DNA of 64,000 nucleotides from Fictibacillus terranigra. Lineage in GTDB: Bacteria; Bacillota; Bacilli; Bacillales; Fictibacillaceae. The stretch lies in the NCBI RefSeq assembly GCF_030412265.1, contig NZ_JAUHLN010000003.1, positions 310,001 to 374,000 of the forward strand, read 5' to 3'. This document shows positions 1-53,912 of the stretch, piece by piece. The notes beneath the pieces were generated by a model. The model saw only the letters and a program-made list of their open reading frames with translations, was not told the origin of the DNA and did no database searches. The translations under genes were made by a program, and so were the position numbers. Numbering within the stretch: position 1 is the stretch's first letter; every line of letters starts with the position of its first letter.

Positions 1-61
1 ATACACATTTTCTAAATTTACTACAACTTTACGTTAACTGATTCTTTCGGTTTTGTAAATA

Positions 62-12307: not shown

Positions 12308-13567
12308 TTACGCTTTATGACCGCCTAAAAGGGTGCTGCGGTGCAGAGCCGTCCCTCCACTCGTATAAGAAACCGCCCGGAGGAGAGCGTTGGATCCGTA
12401 TTTCCTGCGGATATCGTCCATCACATAGCCAAGCTTTCGCTTTTTAGGATGCTCAAGTGTAAAGATGCTGAGCTGCGTTTCACTATCTTCACATACATTG
12501 GACAAAGCAATAGTGATTTTACGGACCGTCTTTCCTTCATAAAATGTATGAAAGAGTTCCAGGCACACCTGATAGATCTCCATCGTAATGTTAGTCGGTT
12601 CAGATACGGTCTTTGATCGGTAAAAGCCCCCGCCCCATTCTTCTTTGCTGTAGCCGATTCCCAGACTGACCGTCCTTCCCGCTTTTCTCGCTGTTCTCGC
12701 CCGTCGCGCCACTTCCTCGCACATTTCTAAAATGACATGCTGGACCTCTTTCGGATCGTCGTAGTCCCGAAGGAGGATCTGGCTTTTTCCATAGCTGATC
12801 TGGCCTTGCATGATCGGAGCCCCCACCTCTGAGAGATCAACTCCCCACGCATGGTAATAAAGCTGATTTCCCATGACACCGAATTTCTTTTCCAAAAGCT
12901 CCAAGGGATAATGCGCAAGGTCTCCTACCGTTGTGATGCCCATCAGATTCAGCGAGCGCTCCACACGGGAACCGATGCCCCACATCTTGCTTAAAGGCGA
13001 CAGCGCCCACAACTTCTTCGGCACGTCCTCATACGTCCATTCCGCCACCCCCCTTTTTTTCGCCTCCAAGTCGAGACATAGCTTAGACATCAGCATGTTC
13101 GGCCCGATCCCGATCGCACTGGGGAGACCGAACTCCTCTTTAATCGCTGTACGAATGGCTTGAGCCAGCTTCACCGGCCCTCCCCACAACCGCTCTGTCC
13201 CGTCTGCCTGAATAAAACTTTCATCTACACTGTAAGTATGAATCGCTTCTTTTGGAACAAAACGGTTGAGCAGACGCGTGATCTCCATGGAACGCTTGAG
13301 AAAAAAGGACATTTGGGCGTCTACGATGTGAATGCGGCTGTCTTTTGGAATCTCAAACAACCGGTTTCCTGTCCTTATTCCAAAATCTCTTTTCAGACAG
13401 GGAGAAGCTGCCAGGACAACACTTCCCTGCCTCTCTGTGTTCCCTACAACAGCAAGATAACAGGTCAGCGGGTCGAGCCCCAGGCGCATAGCCGCACAGC
13501 TTGCATAAAAACTTTTCATATCCATGCACAGAATTGAACGATTTTGAATCTTGGAATAATCGATCAA
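12308..13567 (-). CDS. yqjW: Y-family DNA polymerase (PolY2/YqjW, UvrX type)
   Basis: 419-aa translesion polymerase. The catalytic carboxylates are visible in CMDMKSFYASCAAM and in TYSVDESFIQADG. The thumb helix-hairpin-helix region is around KMWGIGSRVERSLNLMGI, and a little-finger domain follows to about residue 360. The N-terminal SCAAMRLG and the linked YolD gene distinguish it from the DinB-type polymerase at 21.8-23 kb. Two LexA-type operators sit directly upstream, so SOS induction is likely. The downstream YolD-like gene is probably in the same transcript. Confidence 0.85.
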   Translation of the reverse strand: MIDYSKIQNRSILCMDMKSFYASCAAMRLGLDPLTCYLAVVGNTERQGSVVLAASPCLKRDFGIRTGNRLFEIPKDSRIHIVDAQMSFFLKRSMEITRLLNRFVPKEAIHTYSVDESFIQADGTERLWGGPVKLAQAIRTAIKEEFGLPSAIGIGPNMLMSKLCLDLEAKKRGVAEWTYEDVPKKLWALSPLSKMWGIGSRVERSLNLMGITTVGDLAHYPLELLEKKFGVMGNQLYYHAWGVDLSEVGAPIMQGQISYGKSQILLRDYDDPKEVQHVILEMCEEVARRARTARKAGRTVSLGIGYSKEEWGGGFYRSKTVSEPTNITMEIYQVCLELFHTFYEGKTVRKITIALSNVCEDSETQLSIFTLEHPKKRKLGYVMDDIRRKYGSNALLRAVSYTSGGTALHRSTLLGGHKA

Positions 13568-17984: not shown

Positions 17985-18235
17985 TAACTGAACGCTGAAC
18001 ACGGCGCTGAAAGGGACCAGTAATTCATTAAACGGCTGAAAGAGAATGGAATCCACCGGCTGAAAGATTCCAGCAGTACGAGATGAATGAACCTATCCCC
18101 CGAGCCATCAGGGATTGAACCTGATCGTATGCCTTCGATACAGGCAATAAGCTGGGCTTTTAAAAAGCCAATTAAGGTGGTACCGCGGATCGCACTCCTC
18201 CGTCCTTTTCCAAGGATCGAGGAGTGCGTTTTTAC
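17985..18235 (+). promoter_or_regulatory. T-box riboswitch (proline, CCU specifier) upstream of proI
   Basis: About 250 nt of leader RNA without a gene. Stem I base pairs GGGA/TCCC. The specifier loop is bounded by an AGTAA strand and closed by TTCAT/ATGAA, and contains TGAACCTA, giving Pro codon CCT at 18092-18094. The conserved T-box TGGTACCGCG is at 18178-18187 within AAGGTGGTACCGCGG. A terminator stem CGCACTCCTC / GAGGAGTGCG (18191-18200, 18219-18228) with a T-run follows. Uncharged tRNA-Pro should stabilise the antiterminator and turn on proI, in agreement with the downstream enzyme. Confidence 0.92.
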
Positions 18236-18261: not shown

Positions 18262-19104
18262 GTGAATAAGAAAATCGCATTTATTGGAGCAGGCTCCATG
18301 GCAGAAGCTATGATTTCAGGATTGATCACCAATAAACTCGCCGTGCCCGGACAAATCATCGCAGCCAACAGAATGAACACGAATAGGCTCTTGGAACTGA
18401 AGGAAAGGTATGGAATCGATATTGCGGCTTCTGCATCCGATGCGGTCCGGAAAGCAGAGATTCTCATCCTTGCCATGAAACCGAAAGATGCAGAGGACGC
18501 CCTGTACGCGATCAGGGATTCCATCGGTGAACAGCACCTTATCATTTCAGTGCTGGCGGGAATATCAACCGACCATATCTCCTGCCTTCTTCAGTCGGAT
18601 GCACCAGTCATTCGTGCGATGCCGAACACATCGGCAGCGATCGGATATTCTGCTACCGGCCTTGCTGCTGGAAAATATGCGGAAGACCATGATCTCAAAC
18701 AGGCGGAAGAGCTTTTTAACTGCATAGGAACGACCACCTGCTTGAAAGAAGAAAGTCTGCACGCCGTAACCGGATTGGCCGGAAGTGGTCCGGCCTATGT
18801 TTATTATTTAGTCGAAGCGATGCACCAGGCAGCGTCCTCTCTTGATCTTAGTGAATCTGAGGCAAGAGATCTGATCGCTCAGACACTTTTGGGCGCTGCC
18901 CATATGCTGAAAATGAGCGGCGACCATCCCCGGCTGCTCCGTCAGAAGGTAACCAGTCCCGGGGGTACAACAGAGGCGGGCATACAGATGCTGGACCAGT
19001 TTCAAGTAAAAGAAGCCATTGAATCATGCGTCAAACGCGCTGCCCAGCGCTCAGAAGAGCTCGGCAGCCTGTATACACCGCCGTCTGCCGAAGGAATTGT
19101 TTGA
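18262..19104 (+). CDS. proI: pyrroline-5-carboxylate reductase
   Basis: 280-aa NAD(P)H-dependent enzyme for the last step of proline synthesis. The N-terminal cofactor loop is AFIGAGSMAEAMISG; IRAMPNTSAAIG and the C-terminal AVTGLAGSGPAYVYYLVEA with KVTSPGGTTEAGIQML form the P5C-binding signature. The GTG start is preceded by GGAGGG. The proline-specific T-box in the leader fixes its biosynthetic role. B. subtilis has the equivalent gene (yqjO/proI) near rnz, as here. Its stop codon overlaps the -35 of the next promoter. Confidence 0.93.
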   Translation: MNKKIAFIGAGSMAEAMISGLITNKLAVPGQIIAANRMNTNRLLELKERYGIDIAASASDAVRKAEILILAMKPKDAEDALYAIRDSIGEQHLIISVLAGISTDHISCLLQSDAPVIRAMPNTSAAIGYSATGLAAGKYAEDHDLKQAEELFNCIGTTTCLKEESLHAVTGLAGSGPAYVYYLVEAMHQAASSLDLSESEARDLIAQTLLGAAHMLKMSGDHPRLLRQKVTSPGGTTEAGIQMLDQFQVKEAIESCVKRAAQRSEELGSLYTPPSAEGIV

Positions 19105-21819: not shown

Positions 21820-23022
21820 CTAATAAAAGTCTGATGGATCATCTGTTAGTTTGCCTCGAATAATGGACTGATCACCAAACTTTTTTTGAATATCGCTGAT
21901 CAATCGATTGACGTCATTCCGCTTTTTTTCCTGTTCAAACGTAAACAAGTCCATCTGTTTGTAGGCTTTTTCTTTCGGTAAGACATCTGCGGCCGTAATG
22001 CCGAGGAGACGGACTGGCTCACCGTTCCAATGTTTCGTAAACAAAGACCATGCATTCTCAAGAATATCTGCCTTAGCATGAAAGGGATTTTCCATCGTCT
22101 TGCTTCTGGTGACCGTCTTCCGGTCTGCATAGCGGATCACGATCTGAAGGTTCTGTCCAACGGCGTTCTTGGCTTTCATCCGCCGTTCCACTGAATCTGC
22201 CAATACGGAAAAGACGCGTTTAAGCTCCTCTTGATCACTTACGTCTTCAGCCAGAGTGGTAGAGTTGCCCACCGATTGAAATTCAGAGGCGCGCTCCGGA
22301 TCAACCGGGCTGTCATCGATACCGTTCGCACGCTCCCATATCCTCACTCCGTTTTTTCCAAAACGGTGTTTAAGGCTGTACGCATCTTCTTTTGCGAGGT
22401 CACCGATGGTATAAATGTTATATTTTTTTAGTTTCTCCTCTGTGGCTTTTCCGATTCCGTGCATTTCTCCGACGGTCATGGGCCAGAGGATCTGCTGGAT
22501 CTCCCGCTTTCGCAAGACCGTAATGCCCATCGGTTTTTTCATATCCGATGCCATCTTGGCAAGAAATTTATTCGGTGCAATCCCTATGCTTGAAGGTAGG
22601 CCCAATTCATGGAGCAGCCTGTCTTGTATCTCCTCGGCCGCTTCAATCGGGCTCATCGCGGATCCTGTAATATCAAGATAGCCTTCATCGATTGAAACAG
22701 GCTCCACGAGCTCCGTATATTCCCGGAGCAGCTGAAACATCTTCTGAGACATCGTACGGTACTTTTGAAAATCCGGCCGTAAGACGATGAGAGATGGACA
22801 AAGTTTTTTTGCCTGCCACAGTGGCATCGTCGTTTTTATCCCGAACTCCCGTGCTTCATAGCTGCAGGTAACGATGATGCCGCGCCGTTCTTCCGGATTG
22901 CCGGCGATGGCTAAAGGCTTTCCCTTTAAAGCAGGGTCCATCATACTTTCCACCGAGGCATAAAAGCTGTTCATGTCCACATGCAGGATAAATCTTCGTT
23001 TTAAGTTGGCGGACCTATCCAT
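21820..23022 (-). CDS. dinB: DNA polymerase IV (DinB/PolY1)
   Basis: 400-aa Y-family translesion polymerase. Catalytic residues are in LHVDMNSFYASVESM and PVSIDEGYLDITG; the steric and thumb regions include GIGKATEEKLKKYNI. A C-terminal beta-clamp-binding peptide, QMDLFTFE, is present. This is the YqjH-type polymerase, in the same neighbourhood as in B. subtilis and separate from the PolY2/YqjW gene at 12.3 kb. No clear LexA box is visible upstream, unlike the PolY2 gene. Confidence 0.92.
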   Translation of the reverse strand: MDRSANLKRRFILHVDMNSFYASVESMMDPALKGKPLAIAGNPEERRGIIVTCSYEAREFGIKTTMPLWQAKKLCPSLIVLRPDFQKYRTMSQKMFQLLREYTELVEPVSIDEGYLDITGSAMSPIEAAEEIQDRLLHELGLPSSIGIAPNKFLAKMASDMKKPMGITVLRKREIQQILWPMTVGEMHGIGKATEEKLKKYNIYTIGDLAKEDAYSLKHRFGKNGVRIWERANGIDDSPVDPERASEFQSVGNSTTLAEDVSDQEELKRVFSVLADSVERRMKAKNAVGQNLQIVIRYADRKTVTRSKTMENPFHAKADILENAWSLFTKHWNGEPVRLLGITAADVLPKEKAYKQMDLFTFEQEKKRNDVNRLISDIQKKFGDQSIIRGKLTDDPSDFY

Positions 23023-48371: not shown

Positions 48372-48821
48372 TTAAAGCATGTCCAAGAACCGCTGCGAAA
48401 CGTCGGGAGAAACGTCCTTTGACCGGCAGATCACCAAGATCGTATCATCACCGCAAATCGTTCCCATAATTTCCTCCCAGTCCAGTTTATCGATCAATGC
48501 GCCAATCGCGTTTGCATTGCCGGGCAGCGTTTTCATAACAATCAAGTGATCAGCCTGATCAATGCTTACAAAGCTGTCGATCAGTGTCCTTCTCAGTTTC
48601 TGAAGGGGGTTGAAACGCTGGTCCGCCGGCAGGCTGTACTTGTATCTTCCGTCCGACATCGGCACTTTGACAAGGTGCAGTTCTTTAATATCACGGGAAA
48701 CCGTAGCCTGTGTCACATTAAAACGAGCATTGCGCAGCTCCTCGACCAGGTCATCTTGTGTTTCAATTTCTTTATGTGTAATAATTTCTCTTATTTTAAT
48801 ATGACGTTGGCCTTTATTCAC
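48372..48821 (-). CDS. ahrC: arginine repressor/activator AhrC (ArgR)
   Basis: 149-aa ArgR-family regulator, the same length as B. subtilis AhrC. The N-terminal winged helix includes [17 protein letters not shown], and the C-terminal arginine-binding hexamerisation domain includes [17 protein letters not shown] 48821 is chosen over a GTG 9 nt upstream because it aligns with AhrC (starting [12 protein letters not shown]) and has GAGGTGA at proper spacing. It represses arginine synthesis and activates catabolism when arginine is bound. Confidence 0.93.
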
Positions 48822-48910
48822 GTCTTTCACCTCATTTAAATATCGATTGAAGCTTAAAATCCTTTAATCATCTGCTCTTATCTTATAATATTGTCCCGTG
48901 CTTGTACATC

Positions 48911-48958: not shown

Positions 48959-49789
48959 TTATTCATCTGCATCCGTTTTTTTGAACAGCTGGTGGGCCTC
49001 TGTTACGACTTCTGCAATTTTTTCTTCTTGAAATGGTCGTTCAGCGGTTTCGGCTTCAGTCTTCAAATGAACGAGAAATTCGATGTTTCCTTCCCCGCCG
49101 GTTATAGGGGAATAAGAAAGATTTAGGACATTGTAGCCTTCATGGAGAGAAAATCGGATAATTTCCCCGATCACCCGTTCATGAATGACAGGATCCCGCA
49201 CGATTCCTTTTTTTCCAACATCAGCTCTTCCAGCTTCAAATTGAGGTTTGATTAAAGCCATAACCTCTCCGCCTGGTTTTAAGATCGTCTTAAGTACCGG
49301 CAAAATCAGCTTCAATGAGATAAACGAAACATCAATCGTAGCAAATTCCGGCAGGCCGAATTGAAGATCTTCCCGCTTAACATACCTGAAATTTGTTCGT
49401 TCCATAACAGCTACTCGTTCATCCTGACGGATCTTCCACGCCAGCTGGTTATAGCCGACATCAAGGGCATAAACGAACTTCGCTCCATTTTGAAGTGCGC
49501 AGTCGGTAAATCCACCAGTGGATGCCCCAATATCCAGCACAATTTTCCCTTCAAGCTCCAAATCAAATGCCTTGATCGCTTTTTCAAGTTTTAATCCGCC
49601 CCTGCTCACGTAGGGCATTTCGTTGCCTTTGACGGCAAGAGGGGCTTCAATATCGATTTTTAAACCTGGTTTGTCTAAACGTTCGCTGCCCGAATAGACA
49701 AGCCCGGCCATTATTGAACGCTTTGCTTTTTCCCTCGTCTCACTTAGCCCCCGTTCAACGAGCAAAACATCGATCCGTTCTTTCTTCAT
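48959..49789 (-). CDS. yqxC: TlyA-family rRNA methyltransferase (YqxC)
   Basis: 276-aa protein with an N-terminal S4 RNA-binding domain ([20 protein letters not shown]) and an FtsJ-like SAM-dependent methyltransferase domain ([37 protein letters not shown]). TlyA relatives make 2'-O-methylcytidine in rRNA; the 'haemolysin' label for the family is historical. Its ATG overlaps the dxs stop by 4 nt (ATGA), so the genes are translationally coupled. Confidence 0.88.
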
Positions 49790-51687
49790 GTATATAGACC
49801 CTTTTTCTTTTTTTCTAAAACAAGTTTTTTTGTCCGCTCCACTACGTCTTCTGTTGTCATTCCAATCTCTTCTAGAAGTTTGGTCACACTTCCATGTTCA
49901 ATAAAACAATCTGGTATTCCCATTCTGTCGATCATTGTGGAGTAAAATTGATGTTCGTTTGCATATTCCAGAACGGCACTCCCGAAGCCGCCCTGCAGGA
50001 CTGCTTCCTCAATCGTAAGAATCGGCAAACCCTCACGCAGGATTTCCAACATCATCTTATGATCAAAGGGCTTGATGAAGCGCGCGTTGACCACCCTTGC
50101 AGAAACACCTTGTTTAGCCAGGGTTTCCCACGCCTCCAAAGCCATTGGGATCGTTGTTCCAAAGGTAAGAATGACAGCTTCATTTCCTTCTTTCAATACG
50201 TCCCAGCTTCCGATTGGAATTTGTTCATACTCGGTATCCATTTCTACACCAAGGCCGTTGCCTCTCGGGAAACGAATGGCAATCGGTCCATCGTCATATT
50301 GGACAGCCGTATGAACTAAGTGCTGAAGTTCGTTCTCATCTTTCCCCATGGCGATCACGAGATTCGGTATATGGCGCATAAAAGCAATATCAAACACACC
50401 TTGATGGGTCTCACCGTCCGCACCTACGAGCCCAGACCTGTCCACTGTAAGAATAACATTAAGATTCTGTCTCGCCACATCGTGGAGAAGCTGATCATAC
50501 GCGCGCTGCAGAAAAGTAGAATAGATGGACAGAACAGGCTTCATGTTTTGAGTGGCCAGCCCCGCTGCCATGGTCATCGCATGCTGTTCTGCGATTCCTA
50601 CGTCAAAAAGGCGTTCAGGAAACTTCTGTGCATACCCTTCAAGCTGCGAACCTACAGTCATAGCAGGTGTTATAACAGCGATCCGATCATCCTTTTCAGA
50701 AAGGTTGGCTAGTGTATCACTCACGAGTTTACTGTAAGAAGGAGCAGCCTGCTTCGCTTTAATCTTCTCGCCTGATTCAATTTTATATGGGCCCACTCCG
50801 TGCCAGTGATCGGTTTGGTCCTGTTCTGCCGGCTTGTACCCTTTCCCTTTTTTGGTCAATACGTGAACAATCACTGGGCCTTCTGTTTTCTTCGCATAAC
50901 GAAGGTTCTCCTCAAGATCAGACAAGTCATGGCCGTCAACGGGCCCAAGGTACGTGTATCCAAGTTCTTCGAAGAACATGCCAGACACCAGCATGTATTT
51001 TAAACTGTCCTTCAGCCTTTCGGCTGTGGCAGCGAGTTTACCGCCAAACGCCGGGATTTTGCGGATAAGAGATTCCAATTCGTCCTTCGCTTTATTATAT
51101 TTCTTAGCCGTCCTCATTCGCCCGAGTACGCTGTGGAGAGCACCGACGTTCGGAGCTATGGACATTTCATTGTCATTCAGCACAACGATCAAATCTTTTT
51201 TCTCATGTCCAATATGGTTCAATGCTTCAAGCGCCATCCCGCCAGTCAGAGCGCCGTCCCCAATAACGGCTACTACCTTTTCATCGGTTCCTTTTAAATC
51301 ACGCGCGATGGCCATTCCCATAGCCGCTGATAAAGAAGTGGAACTATGGCCGGTTTCCCAGACATCATGTTCGCTTTCCACTCGTTTAGGAAATCCGCAA
51401 AGACCTTTATATTGACGCAATGTATCAAATTGCGAAGTTCTCCCTGTCAGCATTTTGTGGATATAGGCCTGGTGGCCCACATCCCAGATCAGCTTGTCCT
51501 TCGGGCTGTCAAAAACCTTATGAAGGGCAAGAGTCAGTTCGACTACCCCTAGATTGGCACCGAGATGCCCGCCTGTCACAGAAAGCTTGCTGATTAAGAA
51601 GTGACGGATCTCCTGCGCAAGCTTCTTAAGCTGTTCCTGATCGTACGTCTTTAAGAACTGAGGGTTTTGAATATCTTCCAGTTTCAT
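49786..51687 (-). CDS. dxs: 1-deoxy-D-xylulose-5-phosphate synthase
   Basis: 633-aa thiamine-diphosphate enzyme starting the MEP pathway by joining pyruvate and glyceraldehyde 3-phosphate. ThDP/Mg motif [18 protein letters not shown], substrate-binding [12 protein letters not shown], the transketolase-like [11 protein letters not shown] equivalent [18 protein letters not shown] and [14 protein letters not shown] are all present. In the same transcript direction as ispA, OLE RNA and oapA upstream, tying isoprenoid precursor synthesis to that RNA. Confidence 0.95.
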
Positions 51688-51708: not shown

Positions 51709-52308
51709 TTAATTCCTTCTCTTTCCTCTATTAGAAGAAGTATCAAATAGTTTAATCTTTAACTTTTCCTCAAAAAAATATATTAAACGGCCCACTTGAA
51801 AAATAATAATTGTGGCATGGTGGATCGCATATGATTTTCCGAACGCTTTTCCCCCAACCGTTAGCGCCGCAATCACCCCGGTAAACAGGATGGAGATCGT
51901 GTGCTCAAACACTGTTCCTTCCCCATGTCCGAGGTTCATGGTCAATTCTACAATAACTGCCGCTGAAGCCGTTCCGCTGATGATGCCTGATATATCCCCT
52001 ATTACATCATTGCAGAAATTGGCTACCCGGTCAGCATTCCTTGTAATAAGAATAGCATGCCGGGCACCGGGCACCTTTTCTGATGCCATCGCATGAAAGG
52101 GAACTTCATTCGCTGCAGTAGATGCTACACCAATAATATCAAAAATCACACCAATAAGAACAATAATTAACACGATGACCATTCCCATACCCCATGAAAC
52201 GCCGCTAAGGAGCAGGGTGGAAGCCACTGAAAAAATTGCCGCTAACACGAGCGTGATAACGGCAATGCCTGTACTCCATTTTAGCGATTTATGAAATGAA
52301 TGCTTCAT
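51709..52308 (-). CDS. oapA: OapA-like OLE RNA-associated membrane protein
   Basis: 199-aa integral membrane protein with about four hydrophobic spans (around residues 13-34, 42-62, 112-130 and 135-155). A polar segment (about residues 65-105) contains STAANEVPFHAMASEKVPGA and NADRVANFCNDVIGD, reminiscent of a DUF21/CorB-like core without CBS domains. The C-terminus is basic (SSNRGKRRN), suited to RNA contact. Its size, membrane topology and location, between a roughly 0.7-kb noncoding region and dxs, are those of the OLE-associated protein of Bacillus halodurans. That protein brings OLE RNA to the membrane. Identity is from context and layout. Confidence 0.75.
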   Translation of the reverse strand: MKHSFHKSLKWSTGIAVITLVLAAIFSVASTLLLSGVSWGMGMVIVLIIVLIGVIFDIIGVASTAANEVPFHAMASEKVPGARHAILITRNADRVANFCNDVIGDISGIISGTASAAVIVELTMNLGHGEGTVFEHTISILFTGVIAALTVGGKAFGKSYAIHHATIIIFQVGRLIYFFEEKLKIKLFDTSSNRGKRRN

Positions 52309-52324
52309 AAAATCTCCCTATATA

Positions 52325-53015
52325 TAATGAACGCCTTACGCCAGAATCCTGCGTAAGGTCTCCATTTAAATTATGTATGAGGAGTGGTCATTCAAAAAGT
52401 AAACGCTGCGGCTTAGGTCCAGTAGGTTTTCCCAAGAGGAAACGGAGATGTCGCCATATCCGCGGTTTCCCTTTACTTCCTCCTTAACGGTGTCGCCAAA
52501 CGTTAGACTGGATTGCCACTTAGTCCGCACTATAATCCTTTTTGAATGTCGCGGGAACAGTCTAGGAGTTTTCCTCAACAGCCCTTACCCATTTCCCTAG
52601 CCTCTTTTGCAGAGATGATTTCATACGGCATGAACAGATTTCAGGCGGCCAACCCTCCATCGTCCTTATGTCCATAATCCCCTCAAGCTCCACTCAAGGC
52701 AGGCTACGCTGCATGTTTCTGCATGTAGCAGAACATTGGCAGGTTCAAACCCCATTTCACAGCAAGGTATTACAACGCAAGCCGCAAAGATGGGGGTCTC
52801 CGCGGAAGCAGGGTCAACGCCCACATGCCATTGTGGATCGCCCTGCGACCTTAACTCCCAGCGTTAACCCAAGGCTGGGCGCCTCAAGCCAACACCAGGA
52901 ACTTCATCGATGTGCCCTTTGGCGGATTTTTAGGCCCGCCTTCAAGAATGGGAGACTGACTAGAATACTGCACCACTCCAAAATATTCTCTATCATACCA
53001 TAAAACTCGAATGCC
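52325..53015 (-). ncRNA. OLE RNA (ornate, large, extremophilic)
   Basis: About 0.7 kb between ispA and oapA has no credible gene on the transcribed strand but is dense in stems. Examples (plus-strand coordinates) are CCCAGC/GCTGGG (52857-52862, 52874-52879), GCAGGG/CCCTGC (52808-52813, 52841-52846) enclosing CCACA/TGTGG (52821-52825, 52832-52836), CCCCAT/ATGGGG (52750-52755, 52790-52795), GGCGG/CCGCC (52921-52925, 52935-52939) and CCTTACGC/GCGTAAGG (52334-52341, 52351-52358). OLE RNA is known from this operon position, directly upstream of its membrane partner gene, in extremophilic Firmicutes. Ends are approximate. I could not test it against the OLE covariance model. Confidence 0.78.
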
Positions 53016-53033
53016 AACAATACGGCTGAAACA

Positions 53034-53912
53034 CTAGTGGTTTCTACTTACAATATAATCCGTGATCCCTTCGAGTATGACAGGATGAACTTTCGCTTCC
53101 CGAAGGTTCTCTTTTGCCAGCTTGATATGGTGGGCGAGCTCTGCTTTTGCTCCATCAAGCGTGAGAAGTTTTGGATAGGTGCTTTTAAAATTATTTTCAT
53201 CACTTCCAGCTTGTTTTCCCAAGAGCTCGGAATCACCGGTTACATCCAAAATATCATCCTGTATCTGGAAGGCGATTCCCAAGTGCCTGCTGAACGCTTT
53301 CAGGCGTGCGAAATCTTCGGTGTCCGCGTCTGCCAGGACCGCACCAAAAAGAACGGATGCTTCAAGGAGGCGCCCCGTTTTTCTTTCGTGGATCGATTGC
53401 AGCTCTTCCAGTGTAAGCTCCTGATTCTCTGATTCCATGTCCACTGCCTGCCCGGCGACCATCCCTTCTGCTCCGGACGCTTCAGAAAGAATGGAAAGGA
53501 GTGAAACTTTCTGCTCAGGTGAATATACATGGCTTCCTGCGATGACCTGAAAACTGAACGTTAGCAAAGCATCGCCTGCGAGGATCGCGATCGCTTCTCC
53601 AAACGCTTTATGATTCGTTGGCTTCCCTCTCCTGTAATCATCATCGTCCATGCAAGGAAGGTCGTCGTGGATGAGTGAATAGGTGTGCACCATCTCGAGT
53701 GCACAGGCAGCTTCCAGACCCACTTCCGCCCTCTTGCCGAAAGCATCGAGAACAGCCAGCGTTAAGATGGGGCGAAGCCGTTTGCCGCCTGCCTGCAGCG
53801 AATAAAGCATGGAGTCTTTTAAAAGGCCAGGAATGGATTTTTCAGCTAGGAAAGAGGGAAGATAATCATTGATGAACTGCCTTTTGTCTTGCAGGTAGTG
53901 TTGAATATCCAT
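53034..53912 (-). CDS. ispA: farnesyl diphosphate synthase (geranyltranstransferase)
   Basis: 292-aa trans-prenyltransferase. The first Asp-rich motif is in LIHDDLPCMDDDDYRRGKPT and the second in FQIQDDILDVTGD; AGGKRLRPILTLAVLDAFG is the substrate-binding region before the first motif. It makes C15 diphosphate from IPP and DMAPP. It directly follows xseB and precedes the OLE RNA region in one transcription direction. Confidence 0.94.
   Translation of the reverse strand: MDIQHYLQDKRQFINDYLPSFLAEKSIPGLLKDSMLYSLQAGGKRLRPILTLAVLDAFGKRAEVGLEAACALEMVHTYSLIHDDLPCMDDDDYRRGKPTNHKAFGEAIAILAGDALLTFSFQVIAGSHVYSPEQKVSLLSILSEASGAEGMVAGQAVDMESENQELTLEELQSIHERKTGRLLEASVLFGAVLADADTEDFARLKAFSRHLGIAFQIQDDILDVTGDSELLGKQAGSDENNFKSTYPKLLTLDGAKAELAHHIKLAKENLREAKVHPVILEGITDYIVSRNH

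Follow-up and report, generated by a model that had tools for sequence, protein, structure and literature searches.

The window, a 64,000-nt stretch of Fictibacillus terranigra DNA, carries on its minus strand an ispA-type gene, a gap of 725 nt, oapA and dxs, in this order (Table 1). The original prediction held that the gap, put at about 720 nt and judged free of any credible gene on the transcribed strand, encodes OLE, which ranks among the largest conserved RNAs of bacteria to which no biochemical function has been assigned, and that the 199-aa membrane protein next to it is the OLE partner OapA. The evidence bears this out: read on the minus strand, the interval aligns with the Rfam covariance model RF01071 from end to end (1-616 of 616; 508.3 bits, E 3.6e-146, gathering score 50), this is the only OLE match found by the Rfam scan across the whole 4.97-Mb genome, and none of 14 control genomes has one. 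The predicted extent needs trimming, however: the RNA lies inside the interval but stops at 52992 and does not reach 53033; at the other end, the oapA start is 59 nt past the end of OLE. We put the probability that the locus is a full-length OLE-OapA system at about 98%, and this copy is full-length and ordinary for its known family. It shares with the full-length class, typified by Halalkalibacterium (Bacillus) halodurans, the whole model, the oapA neighbour and the isoprenoid operon, as well as P1, P3, P3.1, the k-turn, the A-rich P4 loop and the palindromic P9 loop, and it differs from that class in no important respect.

Could the interval instead be a protein-coding gene, or a chance cluster of inverted repeats? 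Open frames do exist: 70 codons at 52366-52578 on the minus strand and 111 codons on the plus strand, and in some of 110 OLE homologues an uninterrupted stretch of 113-148 codons is present. Yet the 508.3-bit match, far beyond chance, already refutes both readings; furthermore, every one of the 110 homologues has stops in each sense frame (on average 10.4-11.5 of them), and their lengths, 544-648 nt, represent all three remainders on division by three. We regard either reading as vanishingly improbable. Of the two outcomes named beforehand as fatal to the prediction, a missing covariance-model match and a coding signal through the interval on the minus strand, neither was seen.

Four stems had been proposed as parts of the RNA. 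With OLE position p equal to window position 52993 - p, three of them do fall in OLE arms: 52808-52846 in arm 143-189, 52750-52795 in arm 197-242 (one base over) and 52857-52879 in arm 90-140. The fourth, 52334-52358, is real but lies outside OLE; its pattern is expected 0 times and arose in 0 of 100 shuffles, and a hairpin like it folds between OLE and oapA in all six same-genus loci with OLE. As a genome-wide repeat this hairpin was rejected: CCTTACG-3..14-CGTAAGG occurs at only two places in the genome.

On its ispA side OLE is preceded by a promoter-like site, in which both hexamers and the spacing are identical in the five family examples listed (L001, L008, L010, L009 and L014). The window's own site scores 8, has a poor -35 hexamer and is absent from the consensus-scan listing. 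Promoter scores of at least 9.5 are found upstream of 34 of 92 OLE loci as compared with 1 of 92 shuffles, a count from which 18 of the 110 loci were left out because the anchor did not match; the commonest placement of the -10 element (32/92) is with its end 18 nt ahead of a conserved GTGCAG. For B. halodurans, a promoter of ole's own within the operon has been published (PMC9723947).

Several other features of the window deserve mention. A T-box leader at 17998-18210 on the plus strand (RF00230, 96.6 bits, just above the gathering score of 93) has downstream of it a gene, 18262-19104, whose translation reads like a pyrroline-5-carboxylate reductase; two minus-strand genes, 12308-13567 and 21820-23022, read by eye like Y-family DNA polymerases. 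Downstream in the OLE-oapA-dxs cluster lies an argR-like gene (48372-48830, minus strand; named from its translation); ArgR has been named as an unpublished OLE binder (PMC12054373).

Table 1. Features of the OLE-oapA locus (window coordinates) and second OapA-type genes of related genomes (contig coordinates).
Feature	Position	Strand	Basis or remark
ispA-type farnesyl diphosphate synthase	53034..53912	-	NCBIfam NF045485, 411 bits
Promoter-like site of ole, TTGTTG-17-TATGAT	52992..53020 (-35 at 53015-53020; -10 at 52992-52997)	-	
OLE RNA (ole), full-length, 625 nt	52368..52992	-	Rfam RF01071
P1, closing stem	52972-52980 with 52380-52388	-	8/9 pairs form in this RNA
P3	52953-52958 with 52579-52584	-	covariation
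P3.1	52944-52948 with 52593-52597	-	covariation
P4 with A-rich loop	52921..52940	-	loop letters
k-turn strand TCGATGAAG	52902..52910	-	conserved letters
P9 loop palindrome GGCC	52647..52650	-	loop letters
Two GGCGAC loops	52492-52497 and 52450-52455, within 52450..52497	-	P12.2-P13 region
Hairpin CCTTACGC-9-GCGTAAGG	52334..52358	-	between OLE and oapA, outside OLE
oapA, 199-aa membrane protein OapA	51709..52308	-	OapA profile and conserved residues
dxs	49786..51687	-	TIGR00204, 942 bits
Second OapA-type protein, G028	L062:4043-4675		
Second OapA-type protein, G031	L063:3981-4637		
Second OapA-type protein, G026	L064:4148-4783		

Fold and conserved contacts of the RNA

The fold was followed through an alignment of 110 OLE sequences, 30 from the window's family and 80 from distant loci, one per other family label. 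The distant loci were picked by hand among the better-scoring matches listed from searches of the order and the phylum, and shortened variant OLE classes are under-represented for this reason. A covariation scan, in which the 110 sequences have a weighted number of 76, recovers most of the Rfam helices plus P1, P3 and P3.1, which are unpaired in the Rfam structure line. Compensatory cells, counted against six slid controls per stem and uncorrected for kinship among the sequences, number 215 in P1 (at most 61 in the controls; 92% of cells paired), 142 in P3 (at most 58) and 123 in P3.1 (at most 38). Covariation over the 110 loci supports the pairing of all three stems. The expectation that a new homologue would be useful for covariation fared less well: it adds little, because 2,822 Bacillota hits are already in a published survey (PMC11332333).

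The letters of several loops and joints are nearly invariant. The P4 loop reads CTAAAAA in 109 of the 110 RNAs and CTAAAGA in one; in the cryo-EM structure this loop is a dimer contact (PMC12286853). The k-turn, the OapC site in B. halodurans (PMC9723947), has the strand CGATGAAG in 109/110. The P5 loop is CGCCCAG in 102 of the sequences and the P6 loop GGCAT in all 110. In the P9 loop, whose palindrome makes a symmetric kissing contact (PMC12286853), 96 RNAs have GGCC, one has another palindrome and 13 have other letters or a gap. Finally, OapB binds P12.2/P13 in B. halodurans (PMC9723947), a site that we infer to correspond here to the two GGCGAC loops.

What is this conservation for? OLE has been viewed as a putative ribozyme, with c-di-AMP synthesis among the published proposals and OapA as only a membrane anchor. 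The size and conservation of the RNA have been argued in print in favour of catalysis (PMC11332333), and the conserved single-stranded blocks present in our alignment would suit an active site as well as they suit contacts; a structural or scaffold role, however, accounts for the conservation equally well, and we think the ribozyme rather unlikely.

The P3/P3.1 element has been proposed to cross the membrane (PMC12265935). Its 5' strand is 15 or 16 nt long in all 84 family representatives and its 3' strand is more variable (standard deviation 1.17); a crude duplex count of P3 plus P3.1, joining bases included, gives 11-16 pairs (mean 14.3) as compared with 12 in print. But length is equally constant in P1, P4 and the stems at 445-455, 464-468 and 481-486, and only the arms P7, P8 and P9 are strongly variable (standard deviations 7.2, 5.9 and 10.4 nt). 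Because most other OLE stems are just as fixed, the constancy of P3 is no test of membrane spanning, and we rejected P3 length as a diagnostic. The constancy is compatible with the membrane-spanning idea; the value of the analysis is in showing what a constant P3 length cannot prove about a membrane-crossing RNA.

Protein partners, losses and second copies

Both its position and its homology identify the 199-aa protein as OapA, as predicted. An OapA-type protein lies downstream of OLE at 110 of 110 sampled loci, the weakest scoring 157 bits with a profile built from 12 OapA proteins that are all among these loci. Residues 101 and 105 (D101 and D105 here) are acidic and residues 154 and 158 (K154 and K158) basic at every locus, and K78 is basic in 99%; DxxxD has been published as the signature motif of OapA (PMC11332333). 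With the OapA family the protein shares its place just downstream of OLE, its length, the DxxxD motif and a weak similarity to CNNM proteins. A hydropathy scan finds hydrophobic stretches at residues 7-69 (room for two spans), 101-127, 131-158 and 161-179. The best PDB sequence matches to OapA (E 0.42 and 0.99) were taken as chance.

Candidates for the two other partners, oapB and oapC, were found elsewhere in the genome, where the original prediction had proposed to look. The OapB candidate adjoins map and infA and matches the solved OLE-associated protein B (PDB 7k9b; E 6.4e-33); the OapC candidate lies between rpoC and rpsL and matches structures of B. subtilis YbxF (PDB 3v7e and 4lck; E 1.1e-26). 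The genome encodes a second L7Ae-type protein, which is probably YlxQ.

OLE is present in 32 of the 34 genomes of the window's family, and in at least 174 of 299 genomes sampled from the order and at least 284 of 398 sampled from the phylum, the last two counts being lower bounds obtained with stricter filters than the family count. Split or weak matches were considered as insertions or introns and, for six genomes looked at closely, rejected: in G504, G585, G534 and G554 the pieces start within ~220 nt of a contig end or sit on two contigs, and in G439 and G473 they are adjacent. Breaks in the assembly or splitting by the model would explain them. A search of viral contigs yielded 0 matches to a 17-letter OLE pattern; a 15-letter pattern gave 59 stretches, which is about chance level by estimate, and seven matches to an OapA pattern included no relative.

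In two family genomes, G022 and G001, OLE and an intact OapA are absent together: a profile search finds no OapA match in G022, and in G001 OapA is reduced to a 37-residue scrap with a stop. The ispA-dxs remnant measures 560 nt in G022 (L058:3397-3956) and 374 nt in G001 (L065:6886-7259), and when they are compared by BLASTN with ten intact loci, fragments of the start and the end of oapA turn up at both sites (G001, best E 9.4e-17; G022, E 8e-6 for the oapA start and 2.9e-12 for the oapA end plus dxs leader), with 2 of 200 shuffled scars giving a match at the same cut-off. The same BLASTN search reveals no significant piece of OLE at either scar, and the Rfam scan, with E values allowed up to 1, reports no OLE there. 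A dxs tree built on 200 columns places G022 with the window's genus (96/96), whereas G001 falls outside it, in an unresolved place. The simplest reading is that OLE-OapA was apparently lost separately in these two genomes. The published survey states that OLE and OapA occur together, with rare defective OLE genes lacking OapA (PMC11332333). The G022 gap also retains TTGTTG-17-TATGAT at the expected position of the ole promoter.

Three other family genomes (G026, G028 and G031) encode a second OapA-type protein, 44-45% identical to the window's OapA and scoring 200-205 bits with the OapA profile; the window's own genome has one copy. These extra copies are unlinked to OLE: in all three genomes, the Rfam scan detects no OLE within about 4 kb of the second gene, and the single OLE is located elsewhere. 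Two of the second genes adjoin a cardiolipin-synthase-like gene (so named from translations) and one has different neighbours. At the 37 positions that are at least 90% conserved in OapA, the second proteins retain the commonest residue at 30; both Asp residues of DxxxD and the two basic residues are kept, D93 and R94 are not. In the accessible literature on OLE RNA with OapA, or on OLE-associated protein paralogs, we found no mention of a second OapA.

OapA and the CNNM transporters

If OapA resembles CNNM proteins, does it transport Mg2+ as they do? In one model OLE-OapA is a true transporter of Mg2+ (or another metal) that does the same work as MpfA, with OapA moving the ion and OLE gating it. 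This model has published support: cells become sensitive to Mg2+ when OLE or OapA is lost, and across Bacillota OLE and MpfA are anticorrelated, a species with OLE typically carrying one MpfA copy at most (PMC11332333). The likeness of OapA to CNNM counts for it as well, and is faint. Against the Pfam CNNM model (PF01595), OapA residues 45-179 score 17.0 bits, below the cut-off of 28.4, and eight family OapA genes match the model below cut-off (one-genome E 1.9e-5 to 9.2e-4). An hhalign comparison of the 110 OapA proteins with 22 family MpfA proteins gives a single weak local match (probability 5.9%, E 0.0064), and with only two MpfA proteins the probability is 0.3% (E 0.11).

The weak match sets VGGKAFGK of OapA on VLGELAPK of CNNM, so that Glu is replaced by a basic residue and Pro by Gly. 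In CorB, the Glu of the Gly-Glu-x-x-Pro-Lys motif coordinates Mg2+ and the Pro breaks a helix (PMC8242095); in OapA, by this weak local alignment, the position of the Glu is basic in 110/110 sequences, with Lys there in every one of the 12 motif variants listed (91 sequences), which argues against an ion-moving OapA. The missing proline and the DxxxD motif have been noted before (PMC11332333), and we found no mention of the charge change in the accessible literature on OLE RNA with CNNM and lysine. The change is a lead and not a result, because the alignment is weak and an AlphaFold2 model of OapA from two sequences is poor (pLDDT 44.6). OapA falls outside the CNNM/MpfA class: its match to the Pfam model is below cut-off, the ion-site Glu and Pro are not kept in the weak alignment and, unlike MpfA/CorB-type transporters, it has neither CBS nor CorC_HlyC domains.

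The census of CNNM proteins, found above cut-off in 34/34 family genomes, also argues against shared work. Among the 32 OLE-bearing genomes, 8 have one MpfA-type copy, 14 have two and 10 have three, so that 24 carry two or three, and the two genomes without OLE have 2 and 3 copies, no excess; the CBS/CorC architecture was checked in the window genome's own two MpfA-type proteins, the others being open frames of 427-473 codons. Coexistence of OLE and MpfA-type proteins is the rule in this family. Because they coexist in 32 of 32 genomes and loss is accompanied by no extra copies, a simple one-for-one replacement between OLE-OapA and MpfA is not seen here. We consider the transporter model doubtful.

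A possible mechanism

What, then, could the particle do? What we observe is the RNA with its fold, the OapA linked to it and the candidates for OapB and OapC; all that concerns activity is inferred. Transcripts of ole would start at its own promoter and also arise when transcription of the isoprenoid operon reads through, both published for B. halodurans. The RNA would fold into P1 and two domains joined by P3/P3.1, as in structures from other species (PMC12286853, PMC12265935), and would dimerize through the P4 loop, the P5 and P6 loops and the palindromic P9 loop, contacts published for other species, with their letters kept in this RNA. The k-turn is predicted to bind OapC, P12.2-P13 to bind OapB, and the membrane to contain a dimer of OapA. 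OapA may be a membrane part of CNNM descent in which the ion site has been lost, with OLE as the regulatory and sensing part, a counterpart of the CBS and CorC domains of CNNM transporters; the particle would report or adjust the membrane, Mg2+ and energy state.

We favour this mechanism, a CNNM-derived OapA without an ion site combined with OLE as the regulatory and sensing part, but tentatively and at less than even confidence. That OLE acts for OapA as CBS and CorC do for MpfA is a published suggestion; our change to it is that OapA itself may not carry ions. The faintness of the OapA-CNNM link (17 bits; hhalign 0.3 and 5.9 per cent) counts against the favoured mechanism, and the coexistence described above counts against a simple exchange of functions. 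A more elaborate proposal, which we consider quite unlikely, is that OapA is a CNNM-type domain whose Mg2+ site has turned from acidic to basic and which serves as an RNA-holding membrane platform, that OLE complements MpfA and does not replace it, and that the unlinked second OapA of the three relatives either serves the same OLE, in trans or within a mixed dimer, or has a function apart from OLE.

The family itself is a natural test: two genomes without OLE-OapA stand beside many relatives that keep it, some genomes have a second OapA, and OLE and MpfA-type proteins coexist. Comparisons within this family speak to the question of whether OLE-OapA takes the place of a Mg2+ transporter.
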